This document shows positions 7,375-27,184 of a stretch of DNA of 36,803 bases, in pieces. The stretch is from Segetibacter sp. (lineage in GTDB: Bacteria > Bacteroidota > Bacteroidia > Chitinophagales > Chitinophagaceae): assembly GCA_028288485.1 (NCBI GenBank), contig JAQBNO010000036.1, forward strand, positions 1 through 36,803, read 5' to 3'. The position numbers were made by a program, and so were the translations under genes. The notes beneath the pieces were generated by a model. That model did no database searches, was not told the origin of the DNA, and saw only the letters and a program-made list of their open reading frames with translations. How positions within the stretch are numbered: position 1 is the first letter of the stretch; each line of letters starts with the position of its first letter.

Positions 7375-8862
7375 ATGACTCCATCTGAAAAATTCTTAAC
7401 CAAATTGGGTCTTAAAGACCCGGAAGTTAATGAGCCTGCCGATACAAATCCTGTTAAGGAAAATAGCCGGCGCTCCTTTTTTAAGAAATCTACTTTGGGC
7501 GGCATTGCCTTAGGTAGCTCTTATTTGTTTAGTCCTGTGGAAGATGTAATAGCCCAAACTACCGGGGGCGTAAACAGGTTTTCATCTCCGTCGGATCTGA
7601 AAATTACCGATATGCGCTATGCCGTAACTACAGTTCTTGGCCGCACTGCTATGATACGTATAGATACAAACCAGGGCATCTATGGCTTAGGTGAAGTAAG
7701 AGACGGAGCCGACGAAAGGTATGCGTTGATGTTAAAAAGCCGGATCCTCGGCCTAAATCCCTGTAATGTGGAAATGATCTTTAAGATCGTTAAGCAATTT
7801 GGAGGACCGTCAAGGCAGGCCGGTGGAGTGTGCGCAGTGGAGATGGCGCTGTGGGACTTATGCGGCAAAGCGTATAATGTTCCTGCCTGGCAGTTATTAG
7901 GCGGAAGATACCGTGATAAAATAAGGTTGTATGCCGACACTCCGGAGGCTGACTCTCCTGAAGAACAGAAGAAGCTAATGGAGTTTCGTATCAAAGAGCA
8001 GGGATATACCTGGCTAAAGATGGACCTGGGCATAGGCGAGCTGAAAGACATACCAGGTGGAGTGGTCAATTCAAAGTTCTGGGAAAATGAAAAGGGGGTT
8101 CTTCAGCAATGGGGGGCCAGCAATTATATGTCATATGGCAATGCCCGGCACCCCTTCACCCAAATACAAATCACCGACAAGGGTTTGGATGGATTAGCAA
8201 AATTAGTTGACAACGTTCGCGGTATGCTCGGTTACGATATTCCGCTTTCTACAGACCACTACGGCCATTTCGATTTAAATAACGGAATAAGGTTGGGCAA
8301 AAAGGTTGAGCAATACAGGCTTGCCTGGCTGGAAGATATTGTTCCCTGGGATTATCCCGAGCAGTGGAAAACAATCTCTGATGCTTTAGAAACACCAACC
8401 CTTACCGGTGAAGACATTTACCTGTTGTCGGGATTTAAGAAGTTGATAGATACCCGCGCCGTCGACATCATTCATCCCGACCTCGCAAGTTCAGGCGGCC
8501 TTTTAGAGACCAAACGCATCGGAGATTACGCTGAAGAGTATGGAATAGCTATGGCACTGCACCAGGCCGGTACACCTATATCATTTATGGCCAGTGTACA
8601 TTGTGCAGCAGCCACCCAAAACTTTTTGGCACTCGAACACCATTCAATCGATCTTCCCTGGTGGGAAAGTTTAGTGAAAACAACGGATGGCAGAAAATTA
8701 ATCACCAAAGGTTTTGCCAACCTTCCTCTTACCGCCCCGGGTTTAGGAATTGAGTTAAATGATGAAGTAGTGAAACAACACCTGCACGCTAAGGATAAGA
8801 GCTACTTTGAGCCTACTCCGCAATGGAATGATATCCGGTCTCACGACAGGATTTTTAGTTGA
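7375..8862 (+). CDS. Tat-exported mandelate racemase/muconate lactonizing (enolase superfamily) enzyme
   Basis: A 495-residue protein with a twin-arginine leader after a 30-residue hydrophilic tail: SRRSFFKKS at 31-39, then a hydrophobic stretch to about residue 52. Export folded to the periplasm is likely. The N-terminal capping domain (about 75-180) contains GIYGLGEVRDG. The barrel shows WLKMDLG (213-219), STDHYGHFD (292-300), WLEDIVPWD (318-326), TGEDIYLL (344-351), HPDL (367-370) and MALHQAGTPI (393-402). Likely metal ligands are Asp294, Glu320 and Glu346; His396 and Asp369 could form the His-Asp pair typical of sugar-acid dehydratases. K-x-D at 215-217 replaces the family's common K-x-K. 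Members abstract a proton alpha to a carboxylate, usually dehydrating or isomerising a sugar acid. Two RraA genes and an isomerase follow on the same strand, which fits sugar-acid breakdown. The exact substrate is unknown. Confidence 0.88.
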   Translation: MTPSEKFLTKLGLKDPEVNEPADTNPVKENSRRSFFKKSTLGGIALGSSYLFSPVEDVIAQTTGGVNRFSSPSDLKITDMRYAVTTVLGRTAMIRIDTNQGIYGLGEVRDGADERYALMLKSRILGLNPCNVEMIFKIVKQFGGPSRQAGGVCAVEMALWDLCGKAYNVPAWQLLGGRYRDKIRLYADTPEADSPEEQKKLMEFRIKEQGYTWLKMDLGIGELKDIPGGVVNSKFWENEKGVLQQWGASNYMSYGNARHPFTQIQITDKGLDGLAKLVDNVRGMLGYDIPLSTDHYGHFDLNNGIRLGKKVEQYRLAWLEDIVPWDYPEQWKTISDALETPTLTGEDIYLLSGFKKLIDTRAVDIIHPDLASSGGLLETKRIGDYAEEYGIAMALHQAGTPISFMASVHCAAATQNFLALEHHSIDLPWWESLVKTTDGRKLITKGFANLPLTAPGLGIELNDEVVKQHLHAKDKSYFEPTPQWNDIRSHDRIFS

Positions 8863-8960
8863 GGTGTAAAAAGCAGTTCGAATGGTTCAAATAATAAATG
8901 GAGTTTCTTCAAACAATTCAAACTTTTACAACTGTAAAAAGCAAAGCTTAACGTCCGGCT

Positions 8961-9893
8961 ATGAATAAAAAATTGGTATTAATTACGGCACTGACCTTAT
9001 CAGCACTTTTTGCCCAATCCCAGCATGTCGGCTCTCCTCCCGAGTACGTAAAAATGCTAACATCAAAATGGGAAGGGGAGCGTTCTGCTGATGGCCGGCC
9101 TAAAGTTGCAGATGCTATTCTTGAACGTTTGCAAAACTGCACTCTCGAGCAGATCTGGGGTTATTTAGGCAACAGGGGATTTCGTAACCAGGTCGAAAAG
9201 AACTGGATCATATTAAAACCCGGCGAGACCATGGTTGGGCGGGTAGTAACGGCCCAGTTCATGCCCTCCAGGCCCGACCTCGACACCTTTGTAAGGGTAC
9301 AGGGTAGAGCCGAAGGCCGGTCGCAACATGGAGGGATAAATATCTGGCCGATTGATATATTGACAAAGAATGATATTTATGTGGCTGATGGTTATGGAAA
9401 GATTAAAGACGGCACGCTCATAGGTTCAAGCCTGGGTAACGCTATTTTCGGCAAAACCGGTAAAGGGGTCATCTTTTACGGATCTATTCGCGACATGCAG
9501 GAATTGAAGGAAACGAATGGCTTCAATGCCTGGATAAAAGGAAGCGACCCGTCGTACATCAGGGATATGACGCCTACTTCTATTAATGCACCTATTCGAC
9601 TTGGCGAAGTGACTGTAATTCCCGGTGATGTGGTTTTTGCCAACGAATATGGGGTGGTGTTTATACCCGCCTACTTGGCGGAGGCTCTTGTTACAGCTTC
9701 AGAAATGACAGGTCTGCGTGATGAATTTGAAAGAGCGATGCTGCAGTCCGGTAAATATCCTTCAGGGGAGGTTCACGGCGACTGGGCCGATAAGATCAAA
9801 GATGAATTCAGGGCCTGGTTTAAGAAATATCCAAAGAAAACAGCGATCACTTCAAAAGATATCGAAGCCTATTTAAAGAAAGAAGGGCATTAA
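8961..9893 (+). CDS. Exported RraA-family (aldolase fold) protein, copy 1
   Basis: 310 residues with a Sec signal peptide (about 1-21, ending AQSQ). The RraA/HMG-aldolase fold covers about 90-250: GRVVTAQFMPSRPD (93-106), YVADGYGKI (140-148), GTLIGSSLGNAIF (151-163), GVIFYGSIRDMQEL (169-182), and PGDVVFANEYGVVFIP near the end of the fold. The Arg177-Asp178 pair and Glu181 match the family's R-D-x-x-E/D site. The residue 21 positions before Arg177, an acidic residue in characterised class II pyruvate aldolases as I recall, is Ser156 here. Family members cleave 4-hydroxy-2-oxo acids to pyruvate or, as RraA, bind RNase E. An exported protein cannot do the latter, so an aldolase, lyase or decarboxylase role is favoured. 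The gene starts 98 bases after the enolase-like gene. Confidence 0.88.
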   Translation: MNKKLVLITALTLSALFAQSQHVGSPPEYVKMLTSKWEGERSADGRPKVADAILERLQNCTLEQIWGYLGNRGFRNQVEKNWIILKPGETMVGRVVTAQFMPSRPDLDTFVRVQGRAEGRSQHGGINIWPIDILTKNDIYVADGYGKIKDGTLIGSSLGNAIFGKTGKGVIFYGSIRDMQELKETNGFNAWIKGSDPSYIRDMTPTSINAPIRLGEVTVIPGDVVFANEYGVVFIPAYLAEALVTASEMTGLRDEFERAMLQSGKYPSGEVHGDWADKIKDEFRAWFKKYPKKTAITSKDIEAYLKKEGH

Positions 9894-10002
9894 TTCGGTT
9901 AATTAGTAGAGGTTGACTTTAACGACTAAGCCTGAAATTTTTAGTAGCTGCTTCTGCTTAAAATGTTTTTCTTTGGGTGGCCAGCGATAGTTTTCATAGC
10001 AT

Positions 10003-10028
10003 CATCGTTGTGTCACTCACTTTTACTG
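10003..10028 (+). repeat. Short dispersed intergenic repeat
   Basis: Reads CATCGTTGTGTCACTCAC then TTTTACTG. It matches the copy at 19985-20010 at all but one of 26 positions and is close to those at 4413 and 12527. Confidence 0.75.
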
Positions 10029-10094
10029 TAACTTATGAAGCGACAGTTTACTGTATTTGACATCTGCCAGCTTCCTGTTTTAGTAAGTGCATCA

Positions 10095-10199
10095 TGTTTA
10101 TAGAAAAAAGCAGAAATTATTAACGACTCGCGGGGAGTCCCGTGAGAACATAAACGTCATCTGGAGCTTTACTAATTAAGGTTGCGTTTTCTATAAACA
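10095..10199. repeat. 13-bp perfect inverted repeat enclosing a hairpin
   Basis: TGTTTATAGAAAA (10095-10107) and its exact reverse complement TTTTCTATAAACA (10187-10199) flank 79 bases. Inside, CTCGCGGG (10127-10134) pairs with CCCGTGAG (10139-10146) around a GAGT loop, with one G-U pair. Further short complementary segments, GGAGCT with AGCTCC and CGTGAG with CTCACG, lie within and just beyond. It could be a structured RNA leader for the second RraA gene or a small mobile-element remnant. No target-site duplication was seen. Confidence 0.6.
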
Positions 10200-10319
10200 C
10201 GTAGCTCCTCCGGGGCTTAACTCACGACAATGATATAGCAATGAGCAATTTTTGCAAATTAGGAAAAAGAAACTTTTCGGGTCAACCCCTATTTTTTGAT
10301 TAAAACCAGCATTAAAATA

Positions 10320-11252
10320 ATGAAATGCACAGGCCGTTTATTATTACCATTTCTCATCTGTTTTTGTATTACAGGTTCTTTGTTTGCTCAAACCATTTCA
10401 AAGGACGAATTGATTTTTCTGACTTCAGAATGGAAGGGAGAAAGGTTTGCGGATGGCCGCCCGAAAATACCGGATGGACTATTGGAAAGGGCCAGGAATA
10501 TAGTGATTGACGACGCCTGGACTGTATTAAAAAATGAAGGCTATACCAACCAGTTTGAAGGCAATTGGAAAATGGTGCAAAATAATGTTCCTGTTATAGG
10601 CAGAGCGGTTACGGCCATGTTTATGCCCAGTCGCCCCGATATAGAGAAAAATATTAAGGAGCGTGGAACTTCAAGGCAGGGGAGAAAAGGCAATACGAAT
10701 GCATGGCCGATTGAAACACTTACAAAAGGCGACGTTTATGTAGCCGACGGCTTTGGAAAAATTGGCGGAGGAACGCTGATGGGATCTACTTTGGCTAATG
10801 CAATTTTCAGTAAATCAGGTAATGGAGTCGTTTTTAACGGGGCAGCACGAGACTTGCAGGAACTGCAGAATATCAAAGGCTTCAATGCTTTTGTTCGCGA
10901 TTTTCATCCCTCTTTCCTTGAAGAAATGGTTTTGATGGGTTTAAATACACCTGTTCGAATAGGCGCTGTAATGGTATTGCCCGGCGACCTGGTAATAGCA
11001 CAGGGAGAAGGTGTTCTTTTTGTTCCGGCTCATTTAGCCGAACAGGTTGTCGGTACGGCAGAGTTCGTACTGCGGAAGGACCAGTTCGGATTTGAAATGG
11101 TTAAATCGGGCAAATACACCACAGGCCAGGTAGACAGCCAATGGTCAGATGAAATTAAAACGGCTTTTCTTAAATGGCTGGAGCAGCACCCGGAGCTCGG
11201 TAAGATGACCCGGGCCGAACTCGATAAAATAATGAGCAAAAGAACCTGGTAA
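10320..11252 (+). CDS. Exported RraA-family (aldolase fold) protein, copy 2
   Basis: I start this at the ATG at 10320 rather than an in-frame TTG at 10296, because it gives a clean Sec signal peptide ending GSLFAQ (about 1-24). The resulting 310 residues equal copy 1 in length. The two align over most of their length: SEWKGERFADGRPKIPDG here against SKWEGERSADGRPKVADA there. GRAVTAMFMPSRPD, YVADGFGKI, GTLMGSTLANAIF and GAARDLQEL repeat the copy 1 blocks, and Arg177, Asp178 and Glu181 fall at the same numbers. Ser156 again stands 21 positions before the Arg. They are clearly tandem paralogues, diverged enough to suggest separate substrates or a hetero-oligomer. The RNase E regulator role of the family is unlikely for an exported protein. 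The sugar isomerase-like gene follows after 103 bases. Confidence 0.88.
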   Translation: MKCTGRLLLPFLICFCITGSLFAQTISKDELIFLTSEWKGERFADGRPKIPDGLLERARNIVIDDAWTVLKNEGYTNQFEGNWKMVQNNVPVIGRAVTAMFMPSRPDIEKNIKERGTSRQGRKGNTNAWPIETLTKGDVYVADGFGKIGGGTLMGSTLANAIFSKSGNGVVFNGAARDLQELQNIKGFNAFVRDFHPSFLEEMVLMGLNTPVRIGAVMVLPGDLVIAQGEGVLFVPAHLAEQVVGTAEFVLRKDQFGFEMVKSGKYTTGQVDSQWSDEIKTAFLKWLEQHPELGKMTRAELDKIMSKRTW

Positions 11253-11355
11253 TTTAATTTTACTTTACAAAGTTCCAATGTCATCCTAAAACTTAACTGC
11301 TCCGCTGAATACAAATTCTTAAACCTTGCCAAGTAGAGTTAACCGGAAACTCAAA

Positions 11356-12276
11356 ATGAAAAAATATCCCAGGCGACATTTTCTGCAAAATACTGCCGGC
11401 CTTATTGCAATGGCTTTGGCAGGAACTGCCGTTGATTTTAAAAAATACAAACCTCTTCTTTCTTTTTCGACACTCGGTTGCCCCGACTGGAGTTTTAGAA
11501 GCATAGTAGATTTTGCTGAAAAAAACGGCTATGATGGAATAGAGGTACGGGGCATTCAGCGACAACTACACTTACCTAAATGTCCTGAATTCAGCACGCC
11601 GAAGAAGATTGCCGAAACACGTAAAGTCGTAAAAGACAAAGGAGTTAAAATAGTTAACCTTGGGGCGTCCTCTTCTCTTCACTATAGCAATGCGGTGGAA
11701 CGCAAAAAGAACATAGACGAGGCAAAAGAGTTTATTGATCTCGCAGCAGCATTAGGATCCCCTTACATCCGTGTTTTCCCAAATGATTTTCCACCAACCC
11801 AGGAACGCAATGCGACCATTGATCTGATTTCACAAGGTTTATTGGAATTGGGTGATTACGCTAAAGGAAGCCTCGTTACAGTTTTATTGGAATCGCACGG
11901 ACAGGTTGTAAAAAGTGATGATCTTGAAACAATCATGAAGGCTGCTGAACATGACCGCGTGGGTTTGGTATGGGACATTGTAAATATGTGGGTAGTGACA
12001 AAAGAACCACCTTCACTTGTTTACTCGAAGTTGAAAAAATATATCAGGCATACGCACATTAAAGATTTAAAGGTCGTTAATAACAAAGAACAATACACGT
12101 TATTAGGCAAAGGCGAAACGCCAATTTTTGAAGGCATTGATGTATTGAGCAAAGGCAACTACAAAGGCTATTATAGTTTTGAATGGGAAAAACTCTGGCA
12201 CCCGGAAATTGTTGAACCAGAAATTGCACTTGCCGACTATCCAGAAGTAATGAAGGCGCACTTTGAAAAAAAATAA
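11356..12276 (+). CDS. Tat-exported sugar phosphate isomerase/epimerase-like TIM barrel
   Basis: The ATG at 11356 is preferred to an in-frame TTG at 11326, because it puts a twin-arginine leader at the N-terminus (PRRHFLQNTAG, 5-15, then a hydrophobic core). 306 residues in all. This is the xylose-isomerase-like/AP-endonuclease-2 barrel: FSTLGCPDWSF (37-47), GYDGIEVRG (58-66), VTVLLESHG (174-182), VGLVWDIVNMW (202-212), IRHTHIKDLK (230-239) and YYSFEWEK (272-279). Probable divalent metal ligands are Glu179, Asp207, His234 and Glu276, all present. Family members isomerise or epimerise sugars or keto-acids, or act as sugar lyases; annotation as a phosphosugar enzyme is generic. Together with the exported enolase and RraA proteins it completes a set of three enzyme types likely to act on one carbohydrate outside the cytoplasm. 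Confidence 0.88.
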   Translation: MKKYPRRHFLQNTAGLIAMALAGTAVDFKKYKPLLSFSTLGCPDWSFRSIVDFAEKNGYDGIEVRGIQRQLHLPKCPEFSTPKKIAETRKVVKDKGVKIVNLGASSSLHYSNAVERKKNIDEAKEFIDLAAALGSPYIRVFPNDFPPTQERNATIDLISQGLLELGDYAKGSLVTVLLESHGQVVKSDDLETIMKAAEHDRVGLVWDIVNMWVVTKEPPSLVYSKLKKYIRHTHIKDLKVVNNKEQYTLLGKGETPIFEGIDVLSKGNYKGYYSFEWEKLWHPEIVEPEIALADYPEVMKAHFEKK

Positions 12277-22301: not shown

Positions 22302-22470
22302 ATTAAAATAGTCCAGTCATTCAATATCCAGTGGTAAGTTGCAGGTAAAAAAGTACTGACGAAAAAACCTGTCGGGTCAATTGAACGAAAAAACGTTGAG
22401 CCGCGAAACTAAATAATTTTACTTCACCTTTTGTTAATACAACTTTGCTTTCCAAACCTAAACTGCCTAT

Positions 22471-22478
22471 TACTTTTG
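22471..22478 (+). promoter_or_regulatory. Putative -7 box upstream of susC-like gene
   Basis: TACTTTTG matches TAnnTTTG, 26 bases before the ATG at 22505. The nearest TTG upstream is at 22445, a 23-base spacer, longer than usual. Confidence 0.4.
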
Positions 22479-22504
22479 TAAATTCAAGTAAAATTTTAAA
22501 GCTT

Positions 22505-25489
22505 ATGAGTCAAATGATTAGACGATATTTAAGGCCTTTTTTCCTGGTAATGTTTGCATTAATCTATACATCGATTTTGCATGCTCAGCAATCGCGAATT
22601 AGTGGTACTGTAAAAGACAGCGCCACCAACCGACCTGTTTCTGGTGTTTCAGTTGTAAATAATGCTGCTAGAAGCTCCGGAACTTCTACCAGTGAAACCG
22701 GTGAGTTTACGATTGTTGGCAAGCCCGGCGATCGATTGACCCTTACTTCGGTAGGTTATGAAAGTGTCACCGTAACGGTGGGCAACGAAACACAAATAGA
22801 AGTAACACTTTTGGCAAAAGCGGGTCAGTTAAACGAAGTAGTTGTGGTGGGATATGGAAGCACTACTAAGAAAGACGTGACCGGCTCGGTTAAGTCGATA
22901 AAAAGCGAAGATTTTAACCGTGGTATCATTAATTCGCCTGAACAATTATTACAGGGTAAAGTGTCAGGGGTAAATGTAACTTCAGCCAGCGGTGAACCAG
23001 GCGGGGCACAAAATATCACGGTCCGGGGCCCCGGTGGAGTAAGAACCGGAAGTACCCCGCTGTTTGTGGTTGATGGTTTCCCTTTAGATAATTCAGGCAC
23101 GGGAGGCGCTACCAACCCGCTTACTTTTTTAAATCCCCAGGATATTCAAAGCATTGATGTATTAAAAGATGCTTCCGCAACAGCTATTTACGGATCAAGG
23201 GGAGCCAATGGCGTAATTATAATTACTACCAAAAAAGGCAGGGCGGGTTTTAGTACAGTTAATTATGGGTTTAGCATGGGCGTAGCGACGATGGCAAGAG
23301 CATTGCCATTGTTTTCGGCTGACGAATTTAAGAAGCAGGTAGTGGGATTGGGTGGAGTGTTAGATGATCAGGGCGCCAACACCGATTGGCAAAAAGAAAT
23401 CACGCGCTCTGCAATCACCCAAACTCATAATCTTTCATTAAGTGGCGGAGCAAATAAATTCACTTATTATGCATCGCTTAATATGCAAAAGCAGGAGGGT
23501 ATAATCAAAGGAAACAGGTTTGATACCTACAGCGGCAGAATAAACTTAAGTCAAAAATTATTGGATGATAAGCTGACAATAGAAGTTAATTTAAATGCTA
23601 CTAACACTTACAATGAAAGACCACCCAGCCAGGGCATGATTGGCAGCGCGCTTGCAGCAAACCCTACTTACCCGGCCTATGCTCCTGACGGCACGGCGGC
23701 AAGATACCAGGGTGTAACCAACCCGCTGATTACATTAGCCCTCGATAAAGAATATACGACGAAAGACCGGGTGCTAGGCAATATAGCCGGTAGTTTAACC
23801 CTGGCAAAAGGGCTCGTTTACAGGCTTAATTTTGGTATTGACAACTCCACATCTACCAGCGATAATCAGTCTCTTCCCAATGCCCTGCCTGCGCAAATAG
23901 GCGGGTTGACCACGATAAATAATAACAACAGGAATAACCTGGTGGAAAATTACCTTACTTATTCCCGCAGGATGAATGACCATAATATCTCTGCACTTGC
24001 CGGTCATTCTTACCAGAAAATATTTGTGCAAAGCCGTGCAACAAGTATTACCGGTTTTCCTATACTGGATATAGAGCCTCGTTATAATCCGGGACTTGGA
24101 CAGCAGCTTACCCTGGCTAATAACCGTCCTACAGGTTATGCTTTCATCAATGAGCTTCAGTCTTTTTTCTCCCGTATCAATTATCAATACCAGGATAAAT
24201 ACCTGTTAACCGCTACATTTAGAGCGGACGGATCCTCAAAATTTGGCGAAAATAATAAGTATGGTTACTTTCCTTCCTTCTCTGCGGGATGGATTGTATC
24301 GGAAGAAAAATTCATGGAGTCTTCCATATTCAATAGCCTGAAACTAAGGGCGGGTTGGGGACAAACGGGTAACCAGGAAATTCCGCCAAAAATTACGCAG
24401 GAGTTATATACTTCTGTTGCAACAGGTTCTTCAAGTTATCCGCTTTTTCCAATAGGCACTTATCCAGGTGGTACAACCGTAACACGTCTTGCTAATGAAG
24501 ATATACAGTGGGAAGTGTCTACACAAACCGATGTCGGGCTGGATTTCTCACTTTTAAAAGGGCGCCTTACAGGTACAGTAGATTATTTCCGCAAGGTGTC
24601 GAACAATATACTTCTTCAGATTGTACCTGCCGACCCGGTACAACCGGCCAGCACCACCTGGTCTAATATAAAAGATATGACCGTTACCAACAAAGGTCTT
24701 GAGCTTGAATTGAATTATCAGCATACTGCTAAAGGTGGCTTTGGCTATAATGTAGGTGGTAATGTCACCTTCATTAATAACGTTGTAGCAGGATCGCCCT
24801 ATAGCATTTTATCAACCGGCTCGGCCTCGGGATCGGGTATTACCAGCGCTACCATAAATGGTTATATTAATGGACAGCCTATCGGTACTTTTTTCCTGAA
24901 AGAATTTATAGGCTTCGATTCCGTTGGTAAAACCAGGTTTACGGATGTAAACAAAAGCGGCGGACCTGCAAACGATAACGACCGGGTCGCCTTGGGCACA
25001 GCCTTACCTACCTTCATGTACAATTTCAATGGAGACGTGAGCTATAAGAACTTTTATTTTTCTGCGAATTTCAACGGGGTATCGGGTAATAAAATTTTTG
25101 ATAATACTTCCAATGCATTCTTTAGCAAAACGCGGTTAGCGAAAGGCATTAACACAACAGCAGAAGCTGTTCAATTTCGTGAAGAATCGACAAGCAATAC
25201 CACAGACGTTTCATCGAGATACCTGAAAAGCGGGGCTTACCTGCGATTAAACAACGCATCGATAGGATATACATTTAAACCAGAAGCTTTAGGCCTTAGC
25301 CGGTGGGTATCAAACCTACGTTTATCGCTTACCGGTCAAAACCTTTTCGTGATAACCGATTACGATGGCTACGATCCTGAAGTAAATACAGATAGAAGCG
25401 ATGGCGGAATTTCATCGTATGGTATTGATTACCTCAGTTATCCTAAAGCAAGATCTTTTATTTTAAGTTTAAATGTTGCATTAAAATAG
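22505..25489 (+). CDS. SusC/RagA-family TonB-linked outer-membrane protein
   Basis: The ATG at 22505 gives 994 residues with a signal peptide ending ILHAQ (1-28). An upstream TTG would place the signal too far in, and it precedes the likely promoter. Domains in order: carboxypeptidase-regulatory-like (about 30-100, SGTVKDSATNRPVSGVSVV and LTLTSVGYESV), the TonB box region LNEVVVVGYGSTTKKDVTGS, a SusC plug with LLQGKVSGVNVTSASGEPGG and VLKDASATAIYGSRGANGVI, and a long barrel ending SFILSLNVALK. SusC proteins form the channel of the SusCD import pair, opened by a SusD lid. The susD-like gene follows after six bases, so they are translated together. No glycosidase, peptidase or anti-sigma pair lies beside it, so the imported ligand (glycan or peptide) cannot be deduced. 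Confidence 0.95.
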   Translation: MSQMIRRYLRPFFLVMFALIYTSILHAQQSRISGTVKDSATNRPVSGVSVVNNAARSSGTSTSETGEFTIVGKPGDRLTLTSVGYESVTVTVGNETQIEVTLLAKAGQLNEVVVVGYGSTTKKDVTGSVKSIKSEDFNRGIINSPEQLLQGKVSGVNVTSASGEPGGAQNITVRGPGGVRTGSTPLFVVDGFPLDNSGTGGATNPLTFLNPQDIQSIDVLKDASATAIYGSRGANGVIIITTKKGRAGFSTVNYGFSMGVATMARALPLFSADEFKKQVVGLGGVLDDQGANTDWQKEITRSAITQTHNLSLSGGANKFTYYASLNMQKQEGIIKGNRFDTYSGRINLSQKLLDDKLTIEVNLNATNTYNERPPSQGMIGSALAANPTYPAYAPDGTAARYQGVTNPLITLALDKEYTTKDRVLGNIAGSLTLAKGLVYRLNFGIDNSTSTSDNQSLPNALPAQIGGLTTINNNNRNNLVENYLTYSRRMNDHNISALAGHSYQKIFVQSRATSITGFPILDIEPRYNPGLGQQLTLANNRPTGYAFINELQSFFSRINYQYQDKYLLTATFRADGSSKFGENNKYGYFPSFSAGWIVSEEKFMESSIFNSLKLRAGWGQTGNQEIPPKITQELYTSVATGSSSYPLFPIGTYPGGTTVTRLANEDIQWEVSTQTDVGLDFSLLKGRLTGTVDYFRKVSNNILLQIVPADPVQPASTTWSNIKDMTVTNKGLELELNYQHTAKGGFGYNVGGNVTFINNVVAGSPYSILSTGSASGSGITSATINGYINGQPIGTFFLKEFIGFDSVGKTRFTDVNKSGGPANDNDRVALGTALPTFMYNFNGDVSYKNFYFSANFNGVSGNKIFDNTSNAFFSKTRLAKGINTTAEAVQFREESTSNTTDVSSRYLKSGAYLRLNNASIGYTFKPEALGLSRWVSNLRLSLTGQNLFVITDYDGYDPEVNTDRSDGGISSYGIDYLSYPKARSFILSLNVALK

Positions 25490-25495
25490 TTTTAT

Positions 25496-27184
25496 ATGAA
25501 AAAGCATCTGATTTTAATAATGGTAATAAGTACACTCCTATATAGCGGGTGTACAAAACTGGATGAAGAAATTTTAGATGAGGCGCCACCAACAGGGCAG
25601 TCAGATAAGGCAACAGCCGAAGGCTTCATCGCCCCGGTTTATGCTAACTTACCTGCCATCTTTCAGCACACCAATTATTTTGCACTGCAGGAGATAAGTA
25701 CCGATGAAGCCATCCTGCCGTATCGTGGAGGTACCGACTGGGGGGATAATGGTATTTATATCGGTATGCATACCCATAGTTTTTTTACAACCGACAATAA
25801 TATCAGGAGTACCTGGAACCTTATTTTCCAGGGTATCTCAAGGGCTGTAGCCGCTTTAAATACATTGCCTTCTTTAAATGATCCATCTGTTAAAACCTTT
25901 GTAGCAGAAGCAAGGGCCATGCGGGCTTATTACTCTATGTTGAGCCTCGATTTATATGGAGTAGTGTTTGTAAAGGATGACCCAAACGCCAATTCAAAAA
26001 TACTGAGGGGTAAGGATGCGGTAGATTATGTGATCGCCGAATTTTTAAAGGCGGAGCCAGACCTGGATGCTGTGCCGGTAACACATGGCAGGTTGAGCAA
26101 GCCCGCCGTCTGGAGCCTGTTGGCAAGACTTTACCTGAACGCCGCCGTTTACAGGAATGTATACGCCGCCAACATCGCCTTTGCTAATGAAGACATGGAT
26201 AAAGTGATCGAATATTGCGATAAGGTGCTTGGCTCAAACCAATACCAATTGTCCAATGATTACTTCTCCATTTTTAATGATAACAATAACACCAACAAAG
26301 AAATTATTTTTGCAGTAGATCAAAGGGCCGATCTGAATGGCCACAACCGTATGGCATATTTTTCCTTGTCGGGCGACCAGTTTCCCCTTCCCGAATTTCC
26401 TGCCGCAAATGGTACCGATGGCCCAGGCATTACACCTGATTATTACAGAACCTGGGTGAATGCATATGCCCCGCTCGACCCTTCTGTCGACCCCCGCTTT
26501 CATAAGCAGAATCTCGGTATTTATACTAACCCCGCAGACTCATGTGTACCAGCCGATAAATTCCATATTAACAGAGGGATACTACGGGGACAGCAGTATG
26601 GGTTGGTTAAGAATGCCAACAACACGTTTATACGTTGCGCTAATGGGAATATGAAAGTGCTGCCGTTGTATAATGTTTCGAGAAACAGGCCTACGCTGCC
26701 CGTTATTTTCACTGAAAAAATTGATTATACCCAGGCGGGCAGTGACTACAGTTCAGGATACCGTGTAGAAAAATATGAGTTTAGCAGAAAGTCAGTAAGC
26801 GGCAGAAACTTTGGCGAGGCCAATATTGTAATTACCCGGCTCGCCGATATTTACCTGATGCGTGCTGAAGCTAAACTAAGAAAATCAAACGATGCGGCGG
26901 GGGCCCTTGCCGATGTAAATTTTGTTCGGGCATCGCGAAACAGTACTACACCTCCACCTGCATTAACTGCTATGAATTTAGATCTTTTGTTTAGAGAGAG
27001 AGGGTTTGAGCTGTACTGGGAAATGGTTCGCCGGACAGATATGATACGGTTTGGCAAGTACGAAGACACATGGACAGAAAAAACAAATACTGATAAACAA
27101 AAGAGGTTATTCCCAATACCTCAATCCGCCATCGATGGGGCGTCAAACATTCCCGGTTATTTAGTACAGAACCCAAGCTACTAA
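25496..27184 (+). CDS. SusD/RagB-family nutrient-binding lipoprotein
   Basis: 562 residues. Lipoprotein signal with lipobox LYSGC and Cys19. The helical, TPR-rich SusD fold is visible in segments such as FQGISRAVAALNTLP, AEARAMRAYYSMLSLDLYG (family hallmark: acidic/arginine-rich helix followed by a tyrosine-rich one), PAVWSLLARLYLNAAVY, and near the C-terminus ITRLADIYLMRAEAKL, LLFRERGFELYWEMVRRTDM and KQKRLFPIPQSAID, all standard for RagB/SusD. It works as the surface lid and binding protein of the SusC-like transporter just upstream. The ligand-binding residues are too variable to name. A hairpin-rich repeat and then a strong terminator end the transcription unit. Confidence 0.95.
   Translation: MKKHLILIMVISTLLYSGCTKLDEEILDEAPPTGQSDKATAEGFIAPVYANLPAIFQHTNYFALQEISTDEAILPYRGGTDWGDNGIYIGMHTHSFFTTDNNIRSTWNLIFQGISRAVAALNTLPSLNDPSVKTFVAEARAMRAYYSMLSLDLYGVVFVKDDPNANSKILRGKDAVDYVIAEFLKAEPDLDAVPVTHGRLSKPAVWSLLARLYLNAAVYRNVYAANIAFANEDMDKVIEYCDKVLGSNQYQLSNDYFSIFNDNNNTNKEIIFAVDQRADLNGHNRMAYFSLSGDQFPLPEFPAANGTDGPGITPDYYRTWVNAYAPLDPSVDPRFHKQNLGIYTNPADSCVPADKFHINRGILRGQQYGLVKNANNTFIRCANGNMKVLPLYNVSRNRPTLPVIFTEKIDYTQAGSDYSSGYRVEKYEFSRKSVSGRNFGEANIVITRLADIYLMRAEAKLRKSNDAAGALADVNFVRASRNSTTPPPALTAMNLDLLFRERGFELYWEMVRRTDMIRFGKYEDTWTEKTNTDKQKRLFPIPQSAIDGASNIPGYLVQNPSY

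Follow-up and report, generated by a model that had tools for sequence, protein, structure and literature searches.

Genes at the locus and their leaders

We analyzed a 36,803-nucleotide stretch of DNA from Segetibacter sp., a member of the Bacteroidota (contig JAQBNO010000036.1, assembly GCA_028288485.1), which is referred to as the window in subsequent discussion. The genes of interest encode an enolase-superfamily protein (ENO), two RraA-fold proteins (RRA1 and RRA2), and a xylose-isomerase-like barrel (XI). ENO, RRA1, and RRA2 belong to a module that is conserved in Bacteroidota. Comparisons of related loci make it likely that this module degrades sugar acids in the periplasm, with the resulting keto acid imported by a BASS-family transporter. 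The first-pass annotation had assigned four open reading frames (ORFs) on one strand to these families, and the assignment held once two start sites were corrected (Table 1), from TTG at 10296 to ATG for RRA2 and from TTG at 11326 to ATG for XI. All four proteins scored above the Pfam gathering scores, ENO with the MR_MLE N- and C-terminal models, RRA1 and RRA2 with PF03737, and XI with AP_endonuc_2. By these models and by fold, ENO fits the MR/MLE acid-sugar dehydratases of the enolase superfamily, and RRA1 and RRA2 fit the RraA/HMG-CHA aldolase family.

Table 1. Positions of the genes and features in the window
Feature	Positions	Strand	Remarks
ENO, enolase superfamily (MR/MLE), ENO-A type	7375..8862	+	Tat leader predicted; probable sugar-acid dehydratase
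ENO Tat leader	7375..7557	+	End set by eye after AQ; RR is residues 32-33
RRA1, RraA/HMG-aldolase fold, Sec leader	8961..9893	+	Clade most often beside ENO-A
RRA1/RRA2 gap	9894..10319	.	Pieces of a dispersed genomic repeat, outside the mechanism
RRA2, second RraA-fold protein, Sec leader	10320..11252	+	PF03737; different clade from RRA1
XI, xylose-isomerase-like barrel, Tat leader	11356..12276	+	AP_endonuc_2; judged a neighbour, not a module member

Leaders were judged by motif, by conservation, and by a home-made hydrophobicity test, which looks, at the best start, for a basic residue followed by a hydrophobic stretch of 11 residues. Twin-arginine (Tat) motifs can be read directly in ENO (RRSFFKK from residue 32) and in XI (RRHFLQN), as can the leaders of RRA1 (MNKKLVLITALTLSALFAQSQ) and RRA2 (MKCTGRLLLPFLICFCITGSLFAQ). 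The source genome encodes TatC (199.4 bits), which together with the two motifs gives ENO and XI the sequence features of Tat substrates, transport itself being predicted.

Relatives came from two sets of neighbourhoods, a first set of 36 loci, of which 34 were fetched by RRA1/RraA similarity, and 80 further loci from named genomes, which are the best 80 of 538 confirmed relatives and span stretches of 3 to 17 kb. All 37 RraA relatives in the first set passed the hydrophobicity test, compared with 1 of 11 FGGY kinases, 1 of 9 aldehyde dehydrogenases, 2 of 10 AraC-type proteins, and none of 3 FAH proteins that served as controls from the same loci. A hydrophobic stretch preceded the mature part in 112 of 112 testable RraA copies from the 80 loci (a looser test with no control, four copies being untestable), and 71 of the 112 had a cleavage-like site. 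In 120 of 122 ENO proteins, a set that omits ORFs under 400 amino acids from the 80 loci, the motif RR-x-[FLIVMAY] lies in the N-terminal 80 residues. The two others are a protein at a contig edge and an over-long ORF.

The least probable of the readings considered is that the leaders are misleading and that the proteins are cytoplasmic, or are nonenzymatic proteins of the envelope. The evidence for export is from sequence alone, homologous pairs without evident leaders exist, and only 15 of the 26 ENO proteins in the first set passed the hydrophobicity test. Those 26 include two leaderless paralogs, the start picker chose several starts downstream of RR, and RR lay ahead of the stretch in 20 of the 26. 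Arguing against misleading leaders are the RraA and ENO counts from the larger sets, the invariance of the catalytic metal ligands, and the presence of TatC. The predicted export of ENO, RRA1, and RRA2 is thus supported by leader-like N termini that are conserved throughout the families and by a genome that encodes TatC, in agreement with the first-pass annotation.

In an alignment of 11 ENO-A proteins an extension of the type MTPSxKYLxKxGL was conserved ahead of RR (positions 7375-7470 of the window). The model of ENO has a helix at residues 3-10 with a predicted local distance difference test score of about 82, and low confidence in the remainder of the leader. It is possible that this modelled stretch is a candidate binding site for a dedicated Tat chaperone. 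Leaderless enolase-superfamily paralogs are also encoded in the source genome (loci L053 and L054).

Recurrence of the exported-type pair in Bacteroidota

RraA is present by construction in the 34 fetched loci and in the 80 further loci because these were chosen by RRA1/RraA similarity. Therefore, 395 genomes drawn evenly from the phylum were searched with both profiles. Exported-type RraA was found in 24 of these genomes and exported-type ENO in 20; all 20 had both, and ENO without RraA was found in none (Fisher P = 5e-30, not corrected for relatedness). Here "exported-type" denotes a profile score, with leaders read only where stretches were taken, and the split between exported ENO (at least 281 bits) and leaderless ENO (at most 262 bits) was our own. 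Copy numbers in these genomes are lower bounds because at most 4 or 5 candidates were scored per genome. RraA was within 1 kb of 27 of the 33 ENO hits and at 2.7 to 2.8 kb from 4 more; the other 2 were on contigs without RraA. The four genomes with RraA only carry a DgaE-like lyase, an amidohydrolase, and BASS, and three of the four also have RidA.

The most frequent partners of RraA in the 80 loci were leadered ENO (67 loci), BASS (37), SusC (36), SusD (34), a SnoaL/NTF2-like protein (12), and 2-keto-3-deoxygluconate (KDG) kinase (9), followed by FGGY kinase (7), Tat-leadered UxuA (6), KDPG aldolase (5), and an ACS-type MFS transporter (5). The order SusC-SusD-RraA-ENO-BASS was frequent. ENO also recurred with RraA in the first 36 loci, with BASS in 21, FGGY kinase in 11, an AraC-type regulator in 10, and aldehyde dehydrogenase in 9. 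The names SusC, SusD, AraC, and SnoaL were assigned by visual inspection and transferred by BLAST, and the RraA genes of loci L045 and L048 were lost by the ORF caller. The check for co-occurrence in Bacteroidota that accompanied the first-pass annotation thus bore out the exported ENO/RraA pair but not XI as part of the set.

The fullest operons place the pair among the other genes expected of a sugar-acid route. One strand of locus L182 carries SusC, two Tat-leadered UxuA, RraA, ENO, BASS, a second ENO, a PQQ dehydrogenase, an SMP-30 lactonase, KDG kinase, and KDPG aldolase. Locus L163 is almost as complete, with SusC-SusD, three Tat-leadered UxuA, ENO, RraA, a PQQ dehydrogenase, BASS, and the kinase and aldolase. 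An exported UxuA of L163 exceeded the NCBIfam cut-off for mannonate dehydratase (265.7 versus 191 bits), as the KDPG aldolase of locus L173 did its own (378.5 versus 275 bits); the KDG kinase matched KDG-kinase models below cut-off. A Tat motif was present in 8 of the 13 UxuA-family ORFs in the 80 loci. Of the five without it, two begin at the edge of a contig, and the three others adjoin a kinase and an aldolase and appear cytoplasmic. The one BASS protein that was scanned was nearest to the ketopantoate/pantoate transporter PanS, at 241.7 bits and below the cut-off of 400. Ketopantoate is a 4-hydroxy-2-keto acid.

A module type without ENO was found at four loci (L071, L072, L175, and L176). 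Each combines RraA and BASS with an amidohydrolase and a DgaE-like pyridoxal phosphate-dependent lyase, and all but one of them also have RidA. Genes of the GSDH-cytochrome and SMP-30 types are further present in L176. In the first set RR preceded the hydrophobic stretch in 10 of 11 DgaE-like and 5 of 6 RidA proteins, and all 14 amidohydrolases passed the hydrophobicity test. By sequence, the DgaE-type loci look like loci for periplasmic breakdown of amino-sugar acids, and they too are expected to yield KDG.

Several further observations concern the makeup of the loci. Tandem expansions were seen in Adhaeribacter aquaticus (L105; 8 ENO ORFs around 3 RraA) and in a Pedobacter metagenome-assembled genome (L108; 6 ENO ORFs around 1 RraA), edge fragments being included in both counts. 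The small SnoaL/NTF2-like protein appeared leadered by eye and was clear in L148, L155, L168, L170, and L173, whereas L163 lacks it. When a quick tree was rooted on a single leaderless row, the common ancestor of the 122 exported ENO proteins also held 6 leaderless rows, and we make no claim that exported ENO is monophyletic.

A putative periplasmic route and the reaction of RraA

From protein families, leader-like N termini, co-occurrence, gene order, and conserved active-site residues, we propose a route whose compartment, substrates, transporter cargo and direction, and RraA reaction are predictions. The sugar acid would enter the periplasm through SusC/SusD or, in loci that carry the genes, would be made there by a PQQ-type dehydrogenase and an SMP-30-type lactonase. 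Tat-exported ENO would remove water to yield a 2-keto-3-deoxy acid such as KDG. Elsewhere ENO would be replaced by exported UxuA, or by an exported amidohydrolase, DgaE-like lyase, and RidA, which would act on amino-sugar acids with removal of ammonia. Sec-exported RraA would then act on the keto-deoxy product at a metal-dependent pyruvate-enolate site, the simplest reaction being retro-aldolase cleavage to pyruvate and an aldehyde. A BASS-family symporter, or less often an ACS-type MFS transporter, would move the keto acid across the inner membrane, and the route would be completed in the cytoplasm, either by KDG kinase and KDPG aldolase or by different enzymes. In this view, the upper half of an Entner-Doudoroff-like route would lie in the periplasm, and its keto-deoxy product would be imported.

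A periplasmic route from sugar acid to keto-deoxy acid is supported by the recurrence of the exported pair, frequently accompanied by a transporter, and by the presence of KDG kinase and KDPG aldolase in some of the loci. The association of three leadered enzyme sets that should converge on KDG-like products (MR/MLE, UxuA, and DgaE with RidA) with the same RraA family suggests the same. We tentatively extend this to an interchangeable periplasmic KDG factory, in which enolase-, UxuA-, or DgaE/RidA-type front ends would each be coupled to their own exported RraA as pyruvate lyase and, in many cases, to BASS. Sugars would then be oxidized, dehydrated, and even cleaved before crossing the inner membrane, so that import would be limited to small keto acids. 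We consider this extension somewhat less likely than not. Of the periplasmic sugar-acid chemistry that had been proposed for the window, the ENO/RraA part is supported by recurrence and by the transporter, but the roles given to XI and its neighbours are not.

The active sites are conserved. The metal ligands and late His of ENO (D294, E320, E346, and H396) were kept in all 122 relatives. The first metal ligand of ENO lies in a D-H-Y-G motif, and its ENO-B relatives retain D-M-H-G. GalD and ManD have a His two residues after the first metal Asp. That His is not found in the ENO of the window, which was also below the NCBIfam cut-offs for galactonate dehydratase (NF010624; 172.8 versus 311 bits) and ManD (NF043051; 155.3 versus 550 bits). 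For RraA, a study of HMG/CHA aldolase places Arg-123 and the metal-binding Asp-124 in the active site (PMC5065237). This RD was present in both RraA proteins of the window and in 148 of 149 aligned copies. A metal motif, D-X20-R-D or G-X20-R-D-X2-E/D, was reportedly described by Mazurkewich in 2014 for the RraA-family class II pyruvate aldolases. Either D-X20-RD or an acidic residue at RD-X2 was found in 137 of the 149 copies and neither in 12. The two were nearly mutually exclusive (99 versus 37 copies, one copy having both). RRA1 and RRA2 both read S-X20-R-D-X2-E.

RraA most likely acts on the product of the dehydratase, because RraA clades track dehydratase types and because dehydratases are paired with RraA on Terrarubrum and rhizobial plasmids. 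The clades were cut at an arbitrary depth from a midpoint-rooted FastTree tree (supports of 0.985, 0.954, and 0.906 for the three main clades, with a fourth clade of 13 at 0.235). In the ENO-B clade of RraA, the nearest ENO within 700 bases was ENO-B in 31 of 35 cases. In the RRA1 clade (n = 72), the ENO within 700 bases was ENO-A for 46 members, ENO-B for 7, and another ENO for 3, with none for 16. No ENO was within 700 bases for 24 of the 27 members of the RRA2 clade, which had another RraA (17), BASS (9), or DgaE (3) within two genes.

That RraA is an aldolase that cleaves the keto-deoxy acid, as the first-pass annotation had it, is plausible. Two other reactions come into consideration, and the sequence evidence cannot tell the three apart. 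In the first of these, the module would still be periplasmic, but RraA would isomerize the product, for example as a C4 epimerase that converts 2-keto-3-deoxygalactonate (KDGal) to KDG by retro-aldol and aldol steps, so that one transporter and one KDG kinase could serve several sugar acids. The same active-site chemistry would serve, and RraA paralogs are matched to dehydratase paralogs. Five of the 80 loci, a set chosen by RraA, and L182 have RraA alongside both KDG kinase and KDPG aldolase, and in all of these a periplasmic aldolase would waste the kinase. The DgaE-type loci, which would give KDG directly, nevertheless have RraA, and we know of no RraA epimerase; we regard the epimerase as unlikely.

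In the second, RraA would dehydrate the keto-deoxy acid (and, with hexarates, also decarboxylate it) toward alpha-ketoglutarate semialdehyde, which would be transported either as such or as 2-oxoglutarate, with a cytoplasmic aldehyde dehydrogenase as the finishing enzyme. We give this dehydratase about as little weight as the epimerase. One RraA-family Bacteroidota enzyme has such activity, FlDet of Flavobacterium UMI-01, which dehydrates and decarboxylates 2-keto-3-deoxy-hexarate, but it accepted only its hexarate substrate and not KDG (PMC8563752). A leaderless RraA adjoins an NADP aldehyde dehydrogenase in Pseudooceanicola, and the aldehyde dehydrogenase and FAH families were found in 9 and 3, respectively, of the first 36 loci. 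Of the 80 loci, however, 1 has aldehyde dehydrogenase and 4 have FAH, compared with 9 that have KDG kinase.

Several observations weigh against the proposed route with RraA as a pyruvate aldolase. RRA1 and RRA2 have S in place of aldolase D102, and the assignment relies on the alternative RD-X2-E motif. An RraA that consumed all periplasmic KDG would fit badly with the loci in which RraA coexists with KDG kinase and KDPG aldolase, and FlDet was inactive on KDG (PMC8563752). The substrate of ENO is uncertain because the position of the galactonate dehydratase His is mostly Y or F in ENO-A proteins, and neither the ENO nor the BASS protein scanned reached a curated NCBIfam cut-off. No BASS, SusC/SusD, or kinase adjoins the window genes; the nearest SusC/SusD pair (named by eye) lies about 10 kb off, at 22445-27184. 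In a genome of the same genus (G215), ENO-A and RRA1 are split between contigs and RRA1-RRA2 is followed by an ACS-type MFS transporter. In genome G130, ENO-A is beside BASS near a contig end with RRA1 on another contig.

The source genome encodes a second leadered pair, ENO-B and RraA with BASS, on contig C115 (L055). It also has relatives of KDG kinase and KDPG aldolase on contigs C80 and C31 (40% and 44% identity) and a leaderless ENO beside an Eda-like gene on contig C217 (L053). The window enzymes could use the C115 BASS transporter and the C80 and C31 enzymes.

Known systems and neighbouring genes

Textbooks place the dehydration of sugar acids and the chemistry of keto-deoxy acids in the cytoplasm. 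The semi-phosphorylative Entner-Doudoroff, or De Ley-Doudoroff, galactonate route (DgoD-DgoK-DgoA type) is one cytoplasmic example. It likewise has enolase-superfamily dehydration of an aldonate followed by KDG/KDGal kinase and phospho-aldolase, but in Bacteroidota both the dehydratase and RraA have leaders, and a transporter would stand between the dehydration and phosphorylation steps. The ORF lists of the window showed neither KDG kinase nor KDPG aldolase, and the linkage of these two to the dehydratase that marks the semi-phosphorylative route was not found there.

FlDet resembles the RraA proteins of the window as an RraA-family Bacteroidota enzyme that acts on a 2-keto-3-deoxy sugar acid. 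It differs in having 237 residues, no leader from its Met, and alpha-ketoglutarate semialdehyde dehydrogenase and alginate lyase genes as partners, the likeness being one of description (PMC8563752). Compared with HMG/CHA aldolase (3noj; PMC5065237), the window RraA has 18% identity in the alignment made, a leader, about 50 more residues without the leader, and S for D102 in both RRA1 and RRA2. A report on the Pseudoalteromonas ong pathway for oxidative chitin use describes a deacetylase and a PLP deaminase that convert N-acetylglucosaminate to KDG, on which KDG kinase then acts; a RidA protein is required in vivo, and the pathway is predicted to be cytoplasmic (PMC9537276). The DgaE-type loci have the same kinds of enzyme, but the Bacteroidota set is leadered and accompanied by RraA and BASS, the DgaE-like lyase and OngC being likened by kind of enzyme.

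The chance that homologous clusters would be leaderless and cytoplasmic, which the first-pass annotation had named as a way to refute export, was realized in part: pairs without evident leaders exist, but they are distant. Leaderless dehydratase-RraA pairs were found on alphaproteobacterial plasmids (6 of 443 matching records examined) at 24 to 32% identity to ENO and 25 to 30% to RRA1. In 4 of the 6 records MR/MLE is, as in the window, directly beside RraA, together with a sugar ABC importer, which would bring the acid in before dehydration. Two rhizobial plasmids have the ABC importer, MR/MLE, and RraA in a row, and a Terrarubrum plasmid has RraA-NTF2-UxuA and araD-RraA, each dehydratase with its own RraA. 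The hydrophobicity measure was 0.84 to 1.68 in 13 of the 14 proteins and 2.05, over the cut-off, in the Microvirga MR/MLE. RR-x-[FL] was found in two, a Terrarubrum RraA and its NTF2 protein. A haloarchaeal cluster also has manD and RraA together (PMC10963439).

Because leaderless pairs exist in Alphaproteobacteria, what would be new is the compartment and the modular set rather than the chemistry. The first-pass annotation knew of no characterized pathway of this kind. A search of open-licence papers likewise found no exported version with its transporter, although absence there is weak evidence; the chemistry and leaderless pairs are known. A periplasmic 3-keto-glycoside route has reportedly been published for Bacteroides, although our literature search did not find it. 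If the proposed route is correct, half of a sugar-acid pathway is completed periplasmically in many soil and marine Bacteroidota, and in some loci PQQ-type dehydrogenases would couple it to the oxidation of sugars. The route would also offer a testable role for a large family annotated as RNase regulators and for uncharacterized enolase-superfamily and BASS proteins.

The first-pass annotation had joined XI to ENO, RRA1, and RRA2 in one periplasmic pathway, fed by a neighbouring secreted GH31 protein and drained by an MFS transporter. Such a pathway is favoured by the adjacency of the genes and their common export route, both seen in this single window, but we consider it very unlikely. No ENO or RraA was recognized in 11 neighbourhoods of XI orthologs (about 1.5 kb on each side, ORFs judged by eye). 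Six genomes with both XI and exported RraA have them on different contigs (G088, G119, G148, G195, G219, and G279), XI was not found in the same-genus genome G215, and the 80 related loci contain no match to XI, GH31, or MFS. Among the first 36 loci one ORF matched GH31 (L039, 96 bits) and none matched MFS. On these grounds we rejected XI as a member of the pathway and likewise GH31 as supplier and MFS as importer. The three look like bystanders. XI orthologs were found in 26 of 147 genomes of the family, its own included (E value of 1e-15). They are well conserved, with 46 to 66% identity to XI, and the 11 that were read are solitary Tat-type barrels.

Whether RRA1 and RRA2 share a single transcript is uncertain because a 426-base gap with a dispersed repeat separates them. 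A scan for promoters and terminators gave no excess over shuffled sequences (15 versus a mean of 14.0, and 4 versus 6.4). The repeat had 42 matches across the source genome, itself included, and is probably a small noncoding repeat family. Inverted arms lie within the gap at 10095-10107 and 10187-10199.

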